NCBI RefSeq assembly: GCF_002802985.1
Contig: NZ_NVPT01000025.1
Coordinates: 1 to 38,936 of the forward strand
Length of the DNA stretch: 38,936 nucleotides
DNA from: Geodermatophilus chilensis
Lineage (GTDB): Bacteria > Actinomycetota > Actinomycetes > Mycobacteriales > Geodermatophilaceae
Reading direction: 5' to 3'
Shown one piece after another: positions 10,526 to 17,950 of this stretch. Below the pieces are notes generated by a model, which did not search any database, had not been told where the DNA came from, and saw only the letters and a program-made list of their open reading frames with translations. Made by a program: the position numbers and the translations under genes. Every line of letters starts with the position of its first letter. The first letter of the stretch is position 1.

Positions 10526-10797
10526 GCGGTGTGGTTTCTGGGAGTGGGGGGCCGGAGGTTCCCCCCGAGCAGGGGCGGGTGTCTGGCGCTCAGCGGGAGC
10601 CGGGGACCGCACGTGGTGCGGTGTGGTTTCTGGGAGTGGGGGGCCGGAGGTTCCCCCCGAGCAGGCGGGTGTCTGGCGCTCAGCGGGAGCCGGGGACCGC
10701 ACGTGGTGCGGTGTGGTTTCTGGGAGTGGGGGGCCGGAGGTTCCCCCCGAGCAGGCGGGTGTCTGGCGCTCAGCGGGAGCCGGGGACCGCACGTGGT
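10526..10797. repeat. Three tandem copies of a 90-bp repeat
   Basis: Copies run 10526-10617 (92 bp), 10618-10707 (90 bp) and 10708-10797 (90 bp). The last two are identical; the first has two extra G. Each unit contains a GGGGGG...CCCCCC hairpin. The unit junctions form ACCGCAC-GTG-GTGCGGT, a perfect 7-bp stem. The repeats fill most of the 400-bp gap between the decarboxylase start and the tRNA. Open frames across them exist only because the repeat is GC-rich and 90 bp is divisible by three; I see no coding signal. The rest of the gap (10426-10525) holds no other recognised feature. Confidence 0.9.
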
Positions 10798-10802
10798 GCG
10801 GT

Positions 10803-10819
10803 GTCGTCCGGAGGACGAC
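10803..10819 (-). terminator. Hairpin after the CAA tRNA
   Basis: GTCGTCC-GGA-GGACGAC forms a perfect 7-bp stem starting 11 bases beyond the 3' end of the minus-strand tRNA. It is the likely terminator or processing site. Confidence 0.55.
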
Positions 10820-10987: not shown

Positions 10988-11590
10988 GTGAGTAGCGAGT
11001 CGATCCGGGTCCTCATCGCCGAAGACGAGGCGCTCATCCGCCTCGACCTCAAGGAGATGCTCGAGGAGGAGGGGTACATCGTCGTCGCCGAGGTCGGCGA
11101 CGGACAGCAGGCCGTCGACCAGGCCGCGGAGCTGCGGCCGGACCTGGTCATCCTCGACATCCAGATGCCGGTGCTCGACGGGCTCTCCGCGGCCGAGCAG
11201 ATCGCCTCCGCGCGCATCGCCCCGGTCATCGTGCTCACCGCCTTCAGCCAGCGGGAGCTGGTCGAGCGGGCCCGCGACGCCGGTGCGATGGCCTACCTGG
11301 TCAAGCCGTTCTCCAAGAACGACCTGGTGCCGGCCATCGAGGTGGCCCGCGCCCGGTTCGCCGAGATGACCGCCCTGGACGGCGAGGTGCGCACGCTCGA
11401 GGAGCGCCTGGAGACCCGCAAGGTGGTCGAACAGGCCAAGGGCAAGCTGATGGCCGACCAGGGGCTCACCGAGGCCGAGGCGTTCCGGTGGATCCAGCGG
11501 ACGGCGATGAACGAGCGCACGTCGATGAAGGCGGTCGCCCAGCGCATCCTGCAGCCGCAGGCCGCCCCGGACCCGACGACGGGCAGCTGA
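10988..11590 (+). CDS. pdtaR: ANTAR-domain response regulator, PdtaR-like
   Basis: This is a two-component receiver fused to an ANTAR RNA-binding domain, 200 aa, like mycobacterial PdtaR (Rv1626). The receiver (about 5-125) has the acidic pocket E12/D13, phospho-acceptor Asp57 in ILDIQMP, Thr84 and Lys106 in VKPF. The C-terminal ANTAR region (about 137-192) contains KVVEQAKGKLMADQGLTEAEAF. ANTAR proteins bind paired hairpins in nascent RNA and stop termination. No sensor kinase is present in the window, so phosphorylation must come from elsewhere. GTG 10988 was chosen because the homology starts here and a -10 lies 7 bases upstream. Confidence 0.93.
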   Translation: MSSESIRVLIAEDEALIRLDLKEMLEEEGYIVVAEVGDGQQAVDQAAELRPDLVILDIQMPVLDGLSAAEQIASARIAPVIVLTAFSQRELVERARDAGAMAYLVKPFSKNDLVPAIEVARARFAEMTALDGEVRTLEERLETRKVVEQAKGKLMADQGLTEAEAFRWIQRTAMNERTSMKAVAQRILQPQAAPDPTTGS

Positions 11591-11656: not shown

Positions 11657-11774
11657 ATCACGGTCGGGGCGACCCCTGCTCCACCCCCGGATCTGGCAGC
11701 TACCTTCCCCCCACTGACCGGTCGCCCGCCTGGGCGGACGGCTGCACGACCGACACCACAGTGGGAGTTGTTTG

Positions 11775-13112
11775 ATGCGCACAGGCATCCTCGCGCGCAA
11801 CGCCGCCGTCGCGGCCGCGGCGCTCCTCGTCCTGACCGCGTGTGGCGGCGGGGGCGACGACAGTGGCGGTGACGACGCGGCCGGCGGAGGCGGCGGCGGC
11901 GAGCGTCAGGTCAACGTCTACGGCACCGATGGGAACATGGGCAACGCGCTGGGTGAGTCCTTCACCCAGCCCGGCGCGCTGGCCGGCATGTCGGGGACGA
12001 CGCCGCTCACCGAGCTGTCCTCGGACTTCCGCGAGCGGCTGGACGCCGCCTACCCGGGGCTGCAGGACTACAACTACGCCGGCGAGACCTACGACGCCGT
12101 CGTCATCACCGCGATCGCGGCGCAGCTGGCGGGCACCAACGACGCCAATGTCTTCAAGGAGTACGTCAACGGCGTCACCTTCGGCGGCGAGAAGTGCACC
12201 GACATCGCCAGCTGCCTCGAGATCGTCAACGCCGGTGGCAACCCCGACTACGACGGCATCTCCGGCCCGCTGGCCTTCACCGAGGCCGGTGAGCCCTCGG
12301 TCGCCAGCTTCGGCATCCTCACCTTCGGCGAGGACAACGCCCTCGACGAGTCGCTGACCGAGTTCGTGCTCGCCGGCGACGAGGCGAACGCCGCCAGCGA
12401 CGAGGGGCCGGCCCCGGCCGCGCCCGGGACGACCGGCGAGCAGCTGGTCATCGGGTCCCTGCTGCCGCTGACCGGCAACCTGGCCTTCCTCGGCCCGCCC
12501 GAGGTCGCCGGCGCCCGCCTGGCCATCCAGGAGCTCAACGCGGCCGGCGGTGTCCTCGGTCAGGAGGTCCGCCTGGTCGAGGGTGACTCCGGTGACGCGT
12601 CGACCGACACCGCCAGCCAGAGCGTCGACCGGCTGCTGCAGGAGGGCGTGAACGCCATCATCGGCGCGGCGTCCTCGGGCGTCAGCCTGACGGTCATCGA
12701 CCGGATCACCGGCGCCGGTGTCGTCCAGTTCTCGCCGGCGAACACGTCCGACCAGTTCACCGACTACAACGACAACGGGCTGTACTTCCGCAGCGCGCCC
12801 CCGGACACGCTGCAGGCCCGGGCGCTGTCGGACCTGATCATCAACGACGGCAACAACACCGTCGGGATCATGGCGCTCAACGACCCGTACGGCACCGGTC
12901 TGATGGACAACACCCGCGAGAACCTGATCGCGGCGGGCCTGGCCGAGGACAGCATCCAGACGCTGACCTACGACCCCCAGGCGGCGAACTACGACGCCGA
13001 GATCCAGCAGATGGTGGACTTCAACCCCGACGCGGTCGTCGTGATCGGCTTCGAGGAGTCCGCGCGCATCATCGAGGGTCTCAACTCGCAGGGCATCGGC
13101 CCGGCGCGTTGA
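11775..13112 (+). CDS. Branched-chain amino-acid-type solute-binding lipoprotein, circularly permuted
   Basis: This is a Peripla_BP_6/LivJ-type binding protein for an ABC importer, 445 aa. A lipoprotein signal ends at the lipobox LTAC (Cys23), followed by a Gly/Asp-rich linker. The order of the mature protein is unusual. Residues 45 to about 212 (VNVYGTDGNMGNALG ... SVASFGILTF) match the C-terminal part of LivJ-type proteins. After a Pro/Ala linker, residues 224-445 (LVIGSLLPLTGNLAFLG ... IIEGLNSQGIGPAR) match the N-terminal part. The protein ends exactly where the family normally continues into YGTDG. Both parts appear complete. ATG 11775 has GGGAG (11763-11767) upstream. A liv permease/ATPase operon converges on it from 17.9 kb and is the likely partner. 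Confidence 0.9.
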   Translation: MRTGILARNAAVAAAALLVLTACGGGGDDSGGDDAAGGGGGGERQVNVYGTDGNMGNALGESFTQPGALAGMSGTTPLTELSSDFRERLDAAYPGLQDYNYAGETYDAVVITAIAAQLAGTNDANVFKEYVNGVTFGGEKCTDIASCLEIVNAGGNPDYDGISGPLAFTEAGEPSVASFGILTFGEDNALDESLTEFVLAGDEANAASDEGPAPAAPGTTGEQLVIGSLLPLTGNLAFLGPPEVAGARLAIQELNAAGGVLGQEVRLVEGDSGDASTDTASQSVDRLLQEGVNAIIGAASSGVSLTVIDRITGAGVVQFSPANTSDQFTDYNDNGLYFRSAPPDTLQARALSDLIINDGNNTVGIMALNDPYGTGLMDNTRENLIAAGLAEDSIQTLTYDPQAANYDAEIQQMVDFNPDAVVVIGFEESARIIEGLNSQGIGPAR

Positions 13113-13154
13113 TCCCCGCAGGCGTCCACCGCGGCGCCTGACGGACCGGCCCGG

Positions 13155-13186
13155 CGGCCCGGTACCCCCTCGGGGGTGCCGGGCCG
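13155..13186 (+). terminator. Terminator after the solute-binding protein gene
   Basis: Arms 13155-13168 and 13173-13186 pair over 14 bp with one G-T pair and a 4-base loop. The hairpin starts 43 bp after the stop codon. Confidence 0.7.
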
Positions 13187-13303
13187 CTGTCGTGCCGGGT
13201 CAGCGCTGCACGTCCTGCCCGTCCGGCGCCCGGGCGGCCGGTGTGGTCGGCGGACGCCACCGACCAGCGCCACCAGGTGCGGTCGGGCGCGTGCTCCCAC
13301 GCG

Positions 13304-13687: not shown

Positions 13688-14560
13688 CTAGTGCGCCTTG
13701 GCCAGCGTCCCCAGGTAGAGCTCGATGACCTTCGGGTCGTGCATCAGCGACTCACCGGTGTCGGTGTAGGCGTTGCGGCCCTGGTCGAGGACGTAGCCGC
13801 GGTCGCAGATCTGCAGGCACCGGCGGGCGTTCTGCTCGACCATGATGATCGAGACGCCGGTCGCGTTGATCCGCCGGCAACGGATGAAGACCTCGTCCTG
13901 GTAGGCGGGGGAGAGGCCGGCCGACGGCTCGTCGAGCAGCAGGACCGACGGCTCCATCATGAGCGCCCGGCCCATGGCCACCATCTGCCGCTCGCCGCCC
14001 GAGAGCGACCCCGCCTTGATCTTGCGGCGCTCCCCGAGCATCGGGAACAGGTCGGCCACGTAGTCGAAGCGCTCGCGGAAGACCTTGGGCCGCAGGTAGG
14101 CACCCATCTGCATGTTCTCCTCGATGGACAGCGAGGGGAACACGTTGTTGTTCTGCGGCACGTAGCCGACGCCGAGCGAGACCAGCCGGTGGGCCGGGGC
14201 GGAGGTGATGTCCTCCCCGCGCAGCGTCACCGTGCCCGAGCGCACCGGGATGAGCCCGAACAGGGTCTTCAGCAGCGTGGACTTGCCGGCGCCGTTCGGG
14301 CCGATGATGCCGACCAGCTCGCCGTCCTGCAGGTAGAAGTCGCAGCCGTTGAGGATGTTGACGCCGGGCACGTAGCCGGCCACCAGCTCGTCGGCCCGCA
14401 CCAGCGCGCCGCCGGCGAGCCGCACGTGCTCCTCGCGGGTCGCGGCCCGCTCGGCCCGCGACATCTCCCCGGCGATCGCCCGCTGGTCCGGGGTGCCGCC
14501 GTCGGAGTGCCCGACCTGGAACATCGGGTCCTCCATGGCCGGGTCGTCCATCGTGCTCAT
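13688..14560 (-). CDS. livF: Branched-chain amino-acid ABC transporter ATPase LivF
   Basis: This is one of two cytoplasmic ATPases that drive the importer. Walker A is GPNGAGKSTLLKTLFG (about 88), the signature SLSGGERQMVAMGRAL (about 189) and Walker B VLLLDEPSAGLSP. LSP after the Walker B region is usual for LivF. The protein has 290 aa and carries about 50 extra N-terminal residues (Met, Glu and Asp-rich) before the ABC fold begins at VRADELVAGY. Its ATG overlaps the livG stop by 4 bp. It is the last gene of the operon, followed by a strong hairpin. Confidence 0.93.
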   Translation of the reverse strand: MSTMDDPAMEDPMFQVGHSDGGTPDQRAIAGEMSRAERAATREEHVRLAGGALVRADELVAGYVPGVNILNGCDFYLQDGELVGIIGPNGAGKSTLLKTLFGLIPVRSGTVTLRGEDITSAPAHRLVSLGVGYVPQNNNVFPSLSIEENMQMGAYLRPKVFRERFDYVADLFPMLGERRKIKAGSLSGGERQMVAMGRALMMEPSVLLLDEPSAGLSPAYQDEVFIRCRRINATGVSIIMVEQNARRCLQICDRGYVLDQGRNAYTDTGESLMHDPKVIELYLGTLAKAH

Positions 14561-15585
14561 CGGTCCTCCTCGCGTCGGGTGTCGGAGCCGATGACGTCGC
14601 CCTCGGCGTTCTCCTCGCGGGCGATGGCCGCCTCGGCCTCGGCGAGGACGCGGTCCTCCTCCTCGACGGTGAGCGGGGCGTCGTGGTGCGCGCCGAGGTA
14701 GGCGTCGACCACCGCCTGGTTCTGGCTGATCGACTCCGGCGGGCCCTCGGCGATGACCTTGCCGGCGGCCATGACGACGACCCAGTCGCTGATGTCGCGG
14801 ACGACGTCCATGTCGTGCTCGACGAAGACGACCGTCATGCCCTGCTCGCGCAGGTCCTTGACGTGCCCTAGCAGGCTCTGGGTCAGGGCCGGGTTCACGC
14901 CGGCCATCGGCTCGTCGAGCATGACCACCTTCGGGTCGCTCATGAGCGCGCGGGCCATCTCCAGCAGCTTGCGCTGGCCACCGGAGAGCGTGCCGGCGAA
15001 GTCGTCCTTCTTCCGGTCCAGCTTGAACCGGGTGAGCAGGTCCATCGCCTTCTCGGTGTTGGCCCGCTCCTGCGCCCGCCAGGTACCGGGCACCAGGGCG
15101 CGCAGGAAGCTCTCACCCTTCTGCCCTTGGGCGCCGAGCAGCATGTTCTGCAGCACGGTGAGCCGGGACAGCGCCTTGGTCAGCTGGAAGGTGCGGATGA
15201 CGCCCAGCCGGGCCACCTGGTGCGGCGCCAGCTTGCCCAGCGGGCGGCCGTCGAAGGACCACGTGCCGGTGTTGGGCTGGTCGAAGCCGGTCAGCAGGTT
15301 GAACAGCGTGGTCTTGCCGGCGCCGTTGGGCCCGATCAGGCCGGTGATGCCGCCGCGCTGCACCTCCAGGTGGTCCACCGACACCGCGGTGAGGCCGCCG
15401 AACGTGCGGGTGACCCCGTCGACGACGATGGCCGGGTCGGGCTTGGCCACCCCGACCTCCCAGGGGACGTCGCGCAGCGCGGCCCGGGCGAGCAGGCGGG
15501 GTGCCGCGCCGGTCGCCGTCGCGTCCAGGGACGCGGCGTGCGCGCCGTGCGGCGCCGGCTGGCCGGGGGTCTGGTCAGCGGGCAT
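14557..15585 (-). CDS. livG: Branched-chain amino-acid ABC transporter ATPase LivG
   Basis: This is the second importer ATPase, 342 aa. Walker A is GPNGAGKTTLFNLLTGF, the signature TLSGGQRKLLEMARAL and Walker B KVVMLDEPMAGVNP; the AGVNP ending is typical of LivG. The first 50 or so residues (Ala/Pro-rich) precede the ABC domain, which starts near PAIVVDGVTRTFGG. The last 50 residues are acidic (VEEEDRVLAEAEAAIAREE) and go beyond the usual LivG end. It overlaps livM by 11 bp and livF by 4 bp, so the ATPases and permease are probably made in step. Confidence 0.93.
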   Translation of the reverse strand: MPADQTPGQPAPHGAHAASLDATATGAAPRLLARAALRDVPWEVGVAKPDPAIVVDGVTRTFGGLTAVSVDHLEVQRGGITGLIGPNGAGKTTLFNLLTGFDQPNTGTWSFDGRPLGKLAPHQVARLGVIRTFQLTKALSRLTVLQNMLLGAQGQKGESFLRALVPGTWRAQERANTEKAMDLLTRFKLDRKKDDFAGTLSGGQRKLLEMARALMSDPKVVMLDEPMAGVNPALTQSLLGHVKDLREQGMTVVFVEHDMDVVRDISDWVVVMAAGKVIAEGPPESISQNQAVVDAYLGAHHDAPLTVEEEDRVLAEAEAAIAREENAEGDVIGSDTRREEDR

Positions 15586-16573
15586 CGAGCATCACCTCTC
15601 GTCGGTCACCGAAGATGCCCTGTGGTCGGAAGACCAGCAGCAGCATGAGTCCGAGCCCGATCAGCACGAACCGGATCTGAGCCACGTCGGTCGCCGAGAG
15701 CAGGTCCTCGGGGATCACCCCGTTGCCGATCAGCGTACGCAGCCCGGTGTCGGCGAACTGGATGATGAAGAACATCAGCATCGCGCCGACGACGGGACCC
15801 AGGACTCGGGCCGCGCCGCCGAGGATGAGGGCGGCGTAGGCGAGGAACGTGTTGGCGTTCTGGTACTGGTCGGGGTTGGCCGACGCGGTGCCGAGCGCGT
15901 AGATCATGCCGCCGAGGGCGCCGAGCACACCGCCGAGGACGAGCGCCTGCATCTTGTAGACGTAGACGTTCTTGCCTAGCGAGCGCACGGCGTCCTCGTC
16001 CTCGCGGATGGACTTCACCACCCGGCCCCACGGGCTGCGCACCAGCAGCCAGATCAGCAGGCAGGACAGCGCCACGAGGACCCAGCCCACCGTGGTCACC
16101 CACAGCTCGGCGCCGCTCCACCGGGTACCGAGGATGGGGTACTGGCGGCTGGTGTCCCACGGGGCGAGCGCCACGAAGTCGGCGTTGAACCCCGAGAGGC
16201 CGCGGGTGCCGGCGGTCACCGGGGTGGCCGACACCGAGCGGAACAGCAGCCGCAGGCCCTCCGCCGCCGCGATGGTCGCGATGGCGAGGTAGTCCGCGCG
16301 CAGCCGCAGGGTCGGCAGACCCAGCAGCAGAGCCAGGACGACCGCGGCGAGCAGGCCGACGACCACGCCGACCCAGAACGGCAGGCCCCACTGGCTCACC
16401 GAGATGGCGATGCCGTAGCCGCCGAGCATCGCGAAGGCGATCTGCCCGAAGTTGAGCAGCCCGGTGTAGCCGAACTGCACGTTGATGCCGATGGCGAGCA
16501 GCGCGAGGAAGACGGCCTGGAAGCCCAGGCCGGCCTTCAGCGCGACGGCCAGGGCGTCGATCAGCTCACCCAT
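15575..16573 (-). CDS. livM: Branched-chain amino-acid ABC transporter permease LivM
   Basis: This is a membrane-spanning permease subunit of 332 aa with about eight to ten hydrophobic segments. GYTGLLNFGQIAFAMLGGYG near the N-terminus is the family hallmark. SPWGRVVKSIREDEDAVRSLG is the cytoplasmic coupling loop that contacts the ATPases. RPQGIFG near the end is also characteristic. It lies 3 bases after livH and overlaps livG. Confidence 0.93.
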   Translation of the reverse strand: MGELIDALAVALKAGLGFQAVFLALLAIGINVQFGYTGLLNFGQIAFAMLGGYGIAISVSQWGLPFWVGVVVGLLAAVVLALLLGLPTLRLRADYLAIATIAAAEGLRLLFRSVSATPVTAGTRGLSGFNADFVALAPWDTSRQYPILGTRWSGAELWVTTVGWVLVALSCLLIWLLVRSPWGRVVKSIREDEDAVRSLGKNVYVYKMQALVLGGVLGALGGMIYALGTASANPDQYQNANTFLAYAALILGGAARVLGPVVGAMLMFFIIQFADTGLRTLIGNGVIPEDLLSATDVAQIRFVLIGLGLMLLLVFRPQGIFGDRREVMLDAR

Positions 16574-16576
16574 CGT

Positions 16577-17950
16577 TCAGCCCACTCTCACCCGGCTGCC
16601 GAGGATGCCCTGCGGCCGCACGATCAGGATGACGATCAGCAGGAGCAGCCCGCCGACGTACTTGACGTCGTTCGGGATGACCAGCGTCGACATCTGCACG
16701 AAGACACCCACCACGACGCTGCCCACGAGGGCGCCGTAGGCGGTGCCGAGACCGCCGAGGGTGACCCCGGCGAACATGAGCAGCAGCAGCCGGAAGCCCA
16801 TGTCCCACTGCACCTCGTCGGAGAGGCCGAGCAGGACGCCGCCGAGGGCCGCGAGCGCGCCACCCATCATCCAGACGACCAGGATCACCCGGTTGACGTT
16901 GATGCCCGACGACGCCGCCAGGTCGCGGTTGTCGGCGACCGCGCGCATCGCCTTGCCGATCTTGGTGCGCTGCAGCATGACGGCCACCAGCAGCAGGACG
17001 ACCAGCGCGATGACGATCGACGCCAGGTCGGCGTTGGTCATCGTGAACGGGCCGTAGTCGACCGCCCGCTGGCCCCGGTAGTCGGCGTAGGCCTCGGAGC
17101 CGCCGCCGAAGATGATCTGGTACAGGTAGCGCAGCAGCAGCGACAGGCCGATCGAGATGACCAGCGCGGCGACCAGGCCGGTGCCGCGGCGGCGCAGCGG
17201 CCGCCAGATCGCCAGCTCGTTGAGCGCCCCGACCCCCGCGCCGATGACCATGGCGATCAGCGCGGCCGGGATCAGCGGCACGCCGCCCTGCACGTTGATG
17301 AACCACGCGGCGATCGCACCGATGGTCACCAGCTCGCCGTGCGCGAAGTTGGTCAGCCCGGTGGTGCCGAAGATCAGCGACAGGCCCACCGCCGCCATGG
17401 CGATGAGCAGGCCGAAGCGCAGGCCCTCGACGAGCAGCTGGATCCAGCGGACCGTGCCGCCACCGGCCTCCCGGCTGCCGTCGCTGAGCGCGATGATGAC
17501 GCCCTGGTTGCGGCCGGCGTCGACGGTGACCGTGCGGCTGTTCTCCCCGGTCAGCACCACGCCCTCGGGCAGGTCCTCGGCGTTGATCGTGACCGTGTAC
17601 TGACCCGGACCGGGCACCGGCACCGCCCACTGGCCGTTCTCGTCGGTCTCCACGGTGTCGACCTCGGTGCCGTCGGCGGTCGTGACGACCACCTCGACGC
17701 CCTCGACCGGCCCGCTGACGTTGGTCCGCAGCGTGCCCGACACCTGCTCGGTAGCCGTGGGCTCCTCGGTCTGCGCGGCCGCCGTACCGGGCGCCAGCGT
17801 CAGGGCGAGCCCGCCGAGGAGGGTCAGCAGGAGCAGACGGAGCAGCATCCGGCCACCGGGAGCCCCGGATCCCCGTGCGGACCGGCGCCGGGCAGGGGCG
17901 GTTCCCCTGGGTCCCCGGCGTCCCGGCACACGGCCTGGTGCGTGCGTCAC
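16577..17950 (-). CDS. livH: Branched-chain amino-acid ABC transporter permease LivH with N-terminal exported domain
   Basis: This is the second permease subunit, 457 aa, against about 290-310 for ordinary LivH. The LivH part begins near residue 165, with GLTNFAHGELVTIGAIAAWF, a coupling loop TKIGKAMRAVADNRDLAASSG and a final RPQGILG. In front of it is a basic leader, a signal-like hydrophobic segment (about 35-59, ending AAAQ) and an extracytoplasmic domain of about 100 aa. That domain has VEGVEVVVTTADGTEVDTVE and TDENGQWAVPVPGPGQYTV, which resembles a carboxypeptidase-regulatory-like beta-sandwich. GTG 17950 is preceded by AGGGAGG; ATG 17848 would keep the signal but lacks a good site. Confidence 0.88.
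   Translation of the reverse strand: MTHAPGRVPGRRGPRGTAPARRRSARGSGAPGGRMLLRLLLLTLLGGLALTLAPGTAAAQTEEPTATEQVSGTLRTNVSGPVEGVEVVVTTADGTEVDTVETDENGQWAVPVPGPGQYTVTINAEDLPEGVVLTGENSRTVTVDAGRNQGVIIALSDGSREAGGGTVRWIQLLVEGLRFGLLIAMAAVGLSLIFGTTGLTNFAHGELVTIGAIAAWFINVQGGVPLIPAALIAMVIGAGVGALNELAIWRPLRRRGTGLVAALVISIGLSLLLRYLYQIIFGGGSEAYADYRGQRAVDYGPFTMTNADLASIVIALVVLLLVAVMLQRTKIGKAMRAVADNRDLAASSGINVNRVILVVWMMGGALAALGGVLLGLSDEVQWDMGFRLLLLMFAGVTLGGLGTAYGALVGSVVVGVFVQMSTLVIPNDVKYVGGLLLLIVILIVRPQGILGSRVRVG

Follow-up and report, generated by a model that had tools for sequence, protein, structure and literature searches.

The question raised by this locus is whether a LivJ-type binding protein of a soil actinobacterium can carry the two parts of its domain in exchanged order and still work. 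The gene lies in the stretch of 38,936 nucleotides from Geodermatophilus chilensis that was analysed here (the window). We think it encodes a permuted LivJ-type lipoprotein which is predicted to keep its fold and likely feeds a LivHMFG transporter, a gene that replaced the canonical one in the ancestor of its family, with at least two further permutations elsewhere in the phylum. We would put the probability of this reading at about 0.93. The parts of the gene are as follows, the open reading frame and lipobox being just as the original prediction had them.

11763..11767, + strand: GGGAG, read in the sequence as a likely ribosome-binding site, 7 nt ahead of the ATG
11775..13112, + strand: livJ-type open reading frame of 445 amino acids, ATG at 11775 and stop codon at 13110-13112
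11775..11843, + strand: signal peptide with lipobox LTAC (residues 20-23) in the translation; cysteine 23 is encoded at 11841-11843
11844..11906, + strand: Gly/Asp-rich tether, residues 24-44 (pLDDT below 50 across residues 1-41)
11907..12371, + strand: segment equivalent to the C-terminal part of a canonical binding domain, here first, residues 45-199, from sequence matches
12372..12443, + strand: new connector leading from the former C-terminus to the former N-terminus, residues 200-223 (block pLDDT 92-93 at 201-220)
12444..13109, + strand: segment equivalent to the N-terminal part of a canonical binding domain, here last, residues 224-445, from profile and structure-chain matches
13110..13112, + strand: stop codon, in the sequence right at the permutation breakpoint (GIGPAR-stop)

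LTAC fits the lipobox pattern. The signal peptide and stop codon appear to have been retained and no segment lost, in agreement with the original prediction.

The order of the parts was assessed with profiles and with chains of known structure. The window protein exceeds the Pfam gathering cut-off for Peripla_BP_6 (PF13458; 124.2 bits against 31.7), and the match aligns residues 225-442 with profile positions 3-216 out of 343. Restoring the canonical order extends this match to positions 4-313 and raises the score from 124.2 to 139.1 bits, and coverage of the ANF_receptor profile grows from 6-193 to 6-348 of 353. Similarly, residues 225-442 match PDB chains near their start (4gnr 8-221, 3ipc 4-176, 4n0q 11-207), and the canonical-order version yields a single long match to 4gnr (13-301) and to 3ipc (5-297); its matches to 4n0q, ending at 214, and to 1usg, ending at 232, are still partial. 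The other three Peripla_BP_6 proteins of the same genome are canonical, covering profile positions 2-339, 1-339 and 1-319 of 343, against 3-217 for the permuted protein in this comparison. Since the profile matches are continuous only in canonical order, and since the three other members in the genome have that order, the natural explanation is a circular permutation. In 23 canonical loci from relatives, moreover, the two parts join exactly at the window breakpoint, with anything from a 3-base overlap to a 15-base gap between them. The canonical N-to-C order of the whole PF13458 domain is not found in the window protein; the exchange of parts originally predicted is real, and the protein is, as far as its sequence tells, a permuted relative of LivJ-type proteins and not an ordinary member.

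A misassembly, or a collapsed tandem duplication, could in principle produce the same picture, a danger to which the original prediction had already pointed. The window genome is a draft of 374 contigs, and the tether is GC-rich and of low complexity. Against this, independent assemblies agree on the order. Among 94 confirmed relatives, 80 loci were kept for comparison: the C part precedes the N part in 56 (L001-L056), the two matches being 30-57 bases apart, and the order is canonical in 23 (L058-L080); the remaining locus, L057, is related with a different order. The 56 come from Geodermatophilus, Blastococcus, Modestobacter, Klenkia and Geodermatophilaceae, L054 being from an actinomycete and encoding a protein identical to that of G161 (f13). 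Both parts of the window protein share 47-64% identity with canonical relatives. In a search of the family, some match was obtained in 105 of 112 genomes; it was nearly full-length and collinear in 92, which represent all 12 genus codes and include 12 single-contig genomes, and partial in 3. The chance that an artefact explains the order is negligible, and the permutation event is old.

The neighbourhood tells where the permuted gene sits. A response regulator is encoded upstream in all 56 permuted loci and in 17 of the 23 canonical ones, and downstream, 53 of the 56 and 22 of the 23, respectively, have livF running convergently on the opposite strand. With these shared neighbours, the permuted gene occupies the place of the canonical livJ of Mycolicibacterium, Pseudonocardia and Hoyosella. 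In the window the neighbours are:

10994..11590, + strand: response-regulator gene, the upstream synteny marker, conserved in relatives (receiver-domain matches below cut-offs; start position tentative)
13145..13198, no strand: stable hairpin, lacking a T run, in the interval where livJ and livF converge (folding z-score -3.54 for 13128-13200)
13688..14560, - strand: livF-like ATPase gene (best NCBIfam model LivF, below cut-off)
14557..15585, - strand: livG-like ATPase gene (best NCBIfam model LivG, below cut-off)
15575..16573, - strand: livM-like permease gene (best NCBIfam model LivM, below cut-off)
16577..17950, - strand: livH-like permease gene (two UrtB models of NCBIfam lead and LivH is third, all below cut-off)

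The response-regulator gene may correspond to pdtaR. LivJ-type membership goes with a lipoprotein signal and adjoining livHMGF-like genes, and the window locus has both. The hairpin at 13145-13198 is perhaps a bidirectional terminator. Just upstream of the response-regulator gene, at 10526-10804, lies a tandem repeat with a 90-bp unit, 3.1 copies and 98% matches.

A true rearrangement could also have left a gene that is dead or decaying, and the original prediction had allowed for both a working protein and one on its way to loss. In favour of decay, 17 of the 112 family genomes show no permuted gene, 10 of them having weak matches only and 7 none, some of these being incomplete drafts; the gene thus seems dispensable. 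Nevertheless, each of the 56 loci encodes both parts, swapped, within a single open frame, and dN/dS is below 1 for both parts in all six comparisons made. For the whole protein the NG86 values are 0.144 against L003, 0.194 against L001 and 0.31 against L002, with 0.43 for the C part in the last case; more distant members give 0.314 (L004), 0.471 (L012) and 0.513 (L018), and up to 0.68 for the C part, values at which the method is less dependable owing to divergence and codon bias. The window gene is under purifying selection.

The predicted structure points the same way. AlphaFold2, given 53 permuted sequences, returned a model of the whole window protein with a mean pLDDT of 88.5 and a pTM of 0.85, the connector being among its confident regions. 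Foldseek aligned this model with LivJ-type structures over only some 222 columns, about half, with a best target TM-score of 0.56, an outcome to be expected when an aligner follows chain order. The whole two-lobed fold is therefore predicted to be kept on the basis of pLDDT and pTM rather than of a superposition. Positions invariant among the 53 permuted sequences come from both parts (Y49, G50, D52, S301, S320, N323, T324, Y372 and F426), and, by comparison with known LivJ structures, they would line the cleft. In the model the cut falls between the helix at 429-438 and the strand at 47-50, a point which the LivJ topology would presumably place in the second lobe. Decay is thus highly improbable: of the two possibilities originally entertained, a working protein is probably the right one and impending loss finds no support, given the open frames and the purifying selection.

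The genome of the window holds one permuted copy, its sole other match being weak (37% over 102 residues). Two permuted copies occur in four g8 genomes and in G034 and G068; the second copies are those of G078 (L183, 6813-8063), G075, G082, G083, G034 and G068. Where two copies are found at different places, the permuted gene itself has apparently been duplicated or transferred. In three g9 genomes (L174, L175 and L176, from G088, G085 and G104) the permuted gene is accompanied by a canonical but distant livJ paralogue that has livHMGF genes beside it.

Taken together, these features suggest how the permuted protein would work. It would be exported, lipidated at cysteine 23 and held by the flexible tether. 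The chain would then begin in the middle of the second lobe, with the strand VNVYGTDG, continue to the old C-terminus, cross to the old N-terminus through an ordered connector of about 25 residues, and end just past the helix which, in canonical relatives, leads into the strand that here comes first. The ligand, most likely an amino acid, would be caught in the cleft between the lobes and handed to the LivH/LivM-LivF/LivG transporter encoded convergently downstream. The LivJ topology and the order of elements in the model imply that the permutation would put the anchor and both termini in the second lobe and would add a fourth interlobe crossing.

Permuted proteins are also found outside the family, and with more than one breakpoint: we call type A those cut as in the window protein and type B those cut about 20 residues away. 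In a search of 397 genomes of the same taxonomic order, 67 of the 78 f16 genomes among the matches listed have a nearly full-length, collinear match at 43-50% identity. This second family, f16, shares the window breakpoint, and the nine f16 sequences compared all end two residues past the N segment, like the window protein. A fragment at a contig start in G134 (f11), which ends GIGPKR-stop and adjoins livF, also fits the type A breakpoint. Around four f16 permuted copies with long flanks (L171, L172, L173 and L185), liv genes are absent over about 7 kb, so that partnership with livFGMH is not general; canonical copies in two f16 genomes do adjoin livFGMH. These four permuted copies may serve another transporter or role. 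The neighbours of three of them differ among themselves.

Among 247 genomes of the class that includes L057 (Acidimicrobiales), at least 8 carry type B. Such a protein begins at about LEGMKGTTPL and finishes at about VYGTDGNMGNALGENFDAGK, some 20 residues beyond the type A cut. A search of 396 genomes across the phylum added two f30 genomes with nearly the same cut as the Acidimicrobiia type B, the two cuts lying within about three residues of each other. The type B structure model, built from 9 sequences, has a pLDDT of 82.4 and a pTM of 0.81. Connectors measure 24-31 residues in the 81 permuted proteins in which they were measured, lengths that would fit a geometric need. A GDE-like motif in the connector is present in 55 of 63 type A proteins, 7 of 9 from f16 and 0 of 9 of type B; it was defined post hoc from the same sequences, and the type B figure is a better control than the 0 of 86 in canonical proteins, which is uninformative since those chains end within 0-8 residues there. 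Two side cases deserve mention. L135/L179 (G674), of type B, has diverged strongly (39% identity, long branch), and its 16-kb stretch is free of liv genes; L057/L086 is a type B gene with an internal frameshift in a metagenome assembly, possibly a sequencing error.

The number of origins was addressed with trees built on the two segments placed in canonical order. L057/L086, with their frameshift, were excluded from all trees, and L112 was dropped as too short. The quick tree, of 121 chosen rows, implies two changes of order for type B and one for each remaining group. The careful tree retains 77 rows, the 44 dropped including the long-branch type B L135, and recovers type A without f16 (97/93), f16 (100/100) and the Acidimicrobiia type B (100/98) as clades. 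The f30 type B pair falls outside that last clade and groups with canonical L126 (100/93). AU tests reject a single clade of all permuted proteins (p 0.0001, 109 log units), of all type B (p 0.001, 70 log units) and of type A, f16 and Acidimicrobiia together (p 0.0097, 25 log units), and do not reject type A with f16 (p 0.407). The groups were set by part order, but their unions were picked after viewing the trees, making these p values optimistic. Whether type A and f16 share an origin is answered differently by two observations: the GDE-like motif common to both argues for it, and the N-part tree argues against it, since there type A needs two changes and f16 falls outside a set of 29 rows, 14 of them type A and 15 of them canonical (support 95). 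The p value of 0.0097 and the differing breakpoints suggest separate origins for type A and the Acidimicrobiia type B. Overall, the comparisons point to at least three changes of order, perhaps four, which makes permutation a repeated event in this protein family.

It could be argued that permutation happened once, long ago, and that transfer or gene conversion has since put canonical copies back in some lineages. The main hint in this direction is that the cuts of the two type B lineages differ by only about three residues, and the locus is syntenic across many lineages, which would ease replacement. Against this, the type A and type B cuts lie some 20 residues apart, the trees of the N and C parts, each taken alone, both put the f30 pair nearest the same canonical protein, L126, and the two strongest AU rejections (p 0.001 and 0.0001) stand against it. 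We regard one permutation as distinctly improbable and prefer at least three events. The canonical gene would then have been replaced by a permuted one in the ancestor of the window's family, and perhaps also in that of f16, with comparable permutations arising at least twice more in the phylum. A broader proposal, to which we incline somewhat, is that the LivJ family is a recurrent permutation system, with at least three lasting events in one phylum, all with the cut inside a single short segment of the second lobe, bridged by connectors of 24-31 residues. Clustered cuts and near-equal connectors would then point to some gain, in structure or in membrane tethering, from having the lipid anchor on the second lobe instead of the first.

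As to the route, tandem duplication followed by trimming of the outer halves, as originally suggested, competes with fission into two half genes that were re-fused in the other order. Tandem or partly duplicated copies are absent from the 190 livJ loci inspected, whose flanks are mostly 1.5-4 kb, and this favours fission; double matches to the C part occur only in L057/L086, a single gene split by its frameshift. Both routes have been described for other proteins (PMC3320104), where saposin/swaposin and DNA methyltransferases exemplify permutation by duplication and intermediates are documented for the methyltransferases. The LivJ-type proteins may share that route of origin; such intermediates were not found in the 190 loci. 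Against fission, no split half genes were met in the same loci, in an inspection not aimed at them. Furthermore, most type B connectors end in GDG or SDG before the first strand, like the canonical N-terminal linker, as expected if a second copy followed in frame. On balance fission seems unlikely, and duplication with trimming may have been the route. GCGT, noticed originally at both DNA junctions and suggested as a microhomology, was rejected as a relic of the event: of 57 family sequences, the window's alone has it at both.

Canonical LivJ/HAAT proteins (PF13458; 4gnr, 3ipc, 4n0q) share with the window protein their sequence family, lipoprotein export and livFGMH locus; the window protein differs in its swapped parts, its extra ordered connector and, probably, its second-lobe anchor. 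In Treponema pallidum, TpMglB-2 (Tp0684) has been described as a natural circular permutant; this type I lipoprotein binds sugars and has a fourth interlobe crossing, and the class Type Ic / Cluster Bc was proposed for it (PMC4990184). There, the first three N-lobe strands have moved to the C-terminus, leaving the C lobe as it was, and identity to E. coli MglB is 13% over the moved part; the same topology is reported in other treponemes and many Gram-positive species (PMC4990184). The window protein resembles this class in being a circularly permuted type I protein, by sequence in its order and by prediction in its fold. In contrast to a class whose N lobe is cut and whose C-lobe strand order is intact, it appears to be cut in the other lobe. 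TpMglB-2 belongs to a sugar-binding subfamily, whereas the window protein is LivJ-type and both its parts retain clear identity to canonical relatives, in the range given above. Among the titles and abstract starts listed by our literature search, which lay outside most subscription papers and bioRxiv, TpMglB-2 was the one natural permuted binding protein, and no permuted LivJ-type protein appeared. The kind of change is thus known through TpMglB-2, and its recurrence would be the novel part.

Natural permutants that occupy the locus of their unpermuted relatives, show clear identity to them and recur in separate lineages amount to a ready-made evolutionary experiment. They invite the questions of what makes one particular site tolerant of a cut and of whether such proteins arise by duplication, and they allow possible effects of anchor relocation on tethering, affinity and transporter docking to be asked about. 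They also carry a warning for annotation, since the Pfam model detects one half of the window protein only. Permuted binding proteins have been built in laboratories as sensors; beside these, evolution supplies breakpoints that have lasted, and the family offers a natural series for how evolution re-routes a protein chain while keeping its shape.
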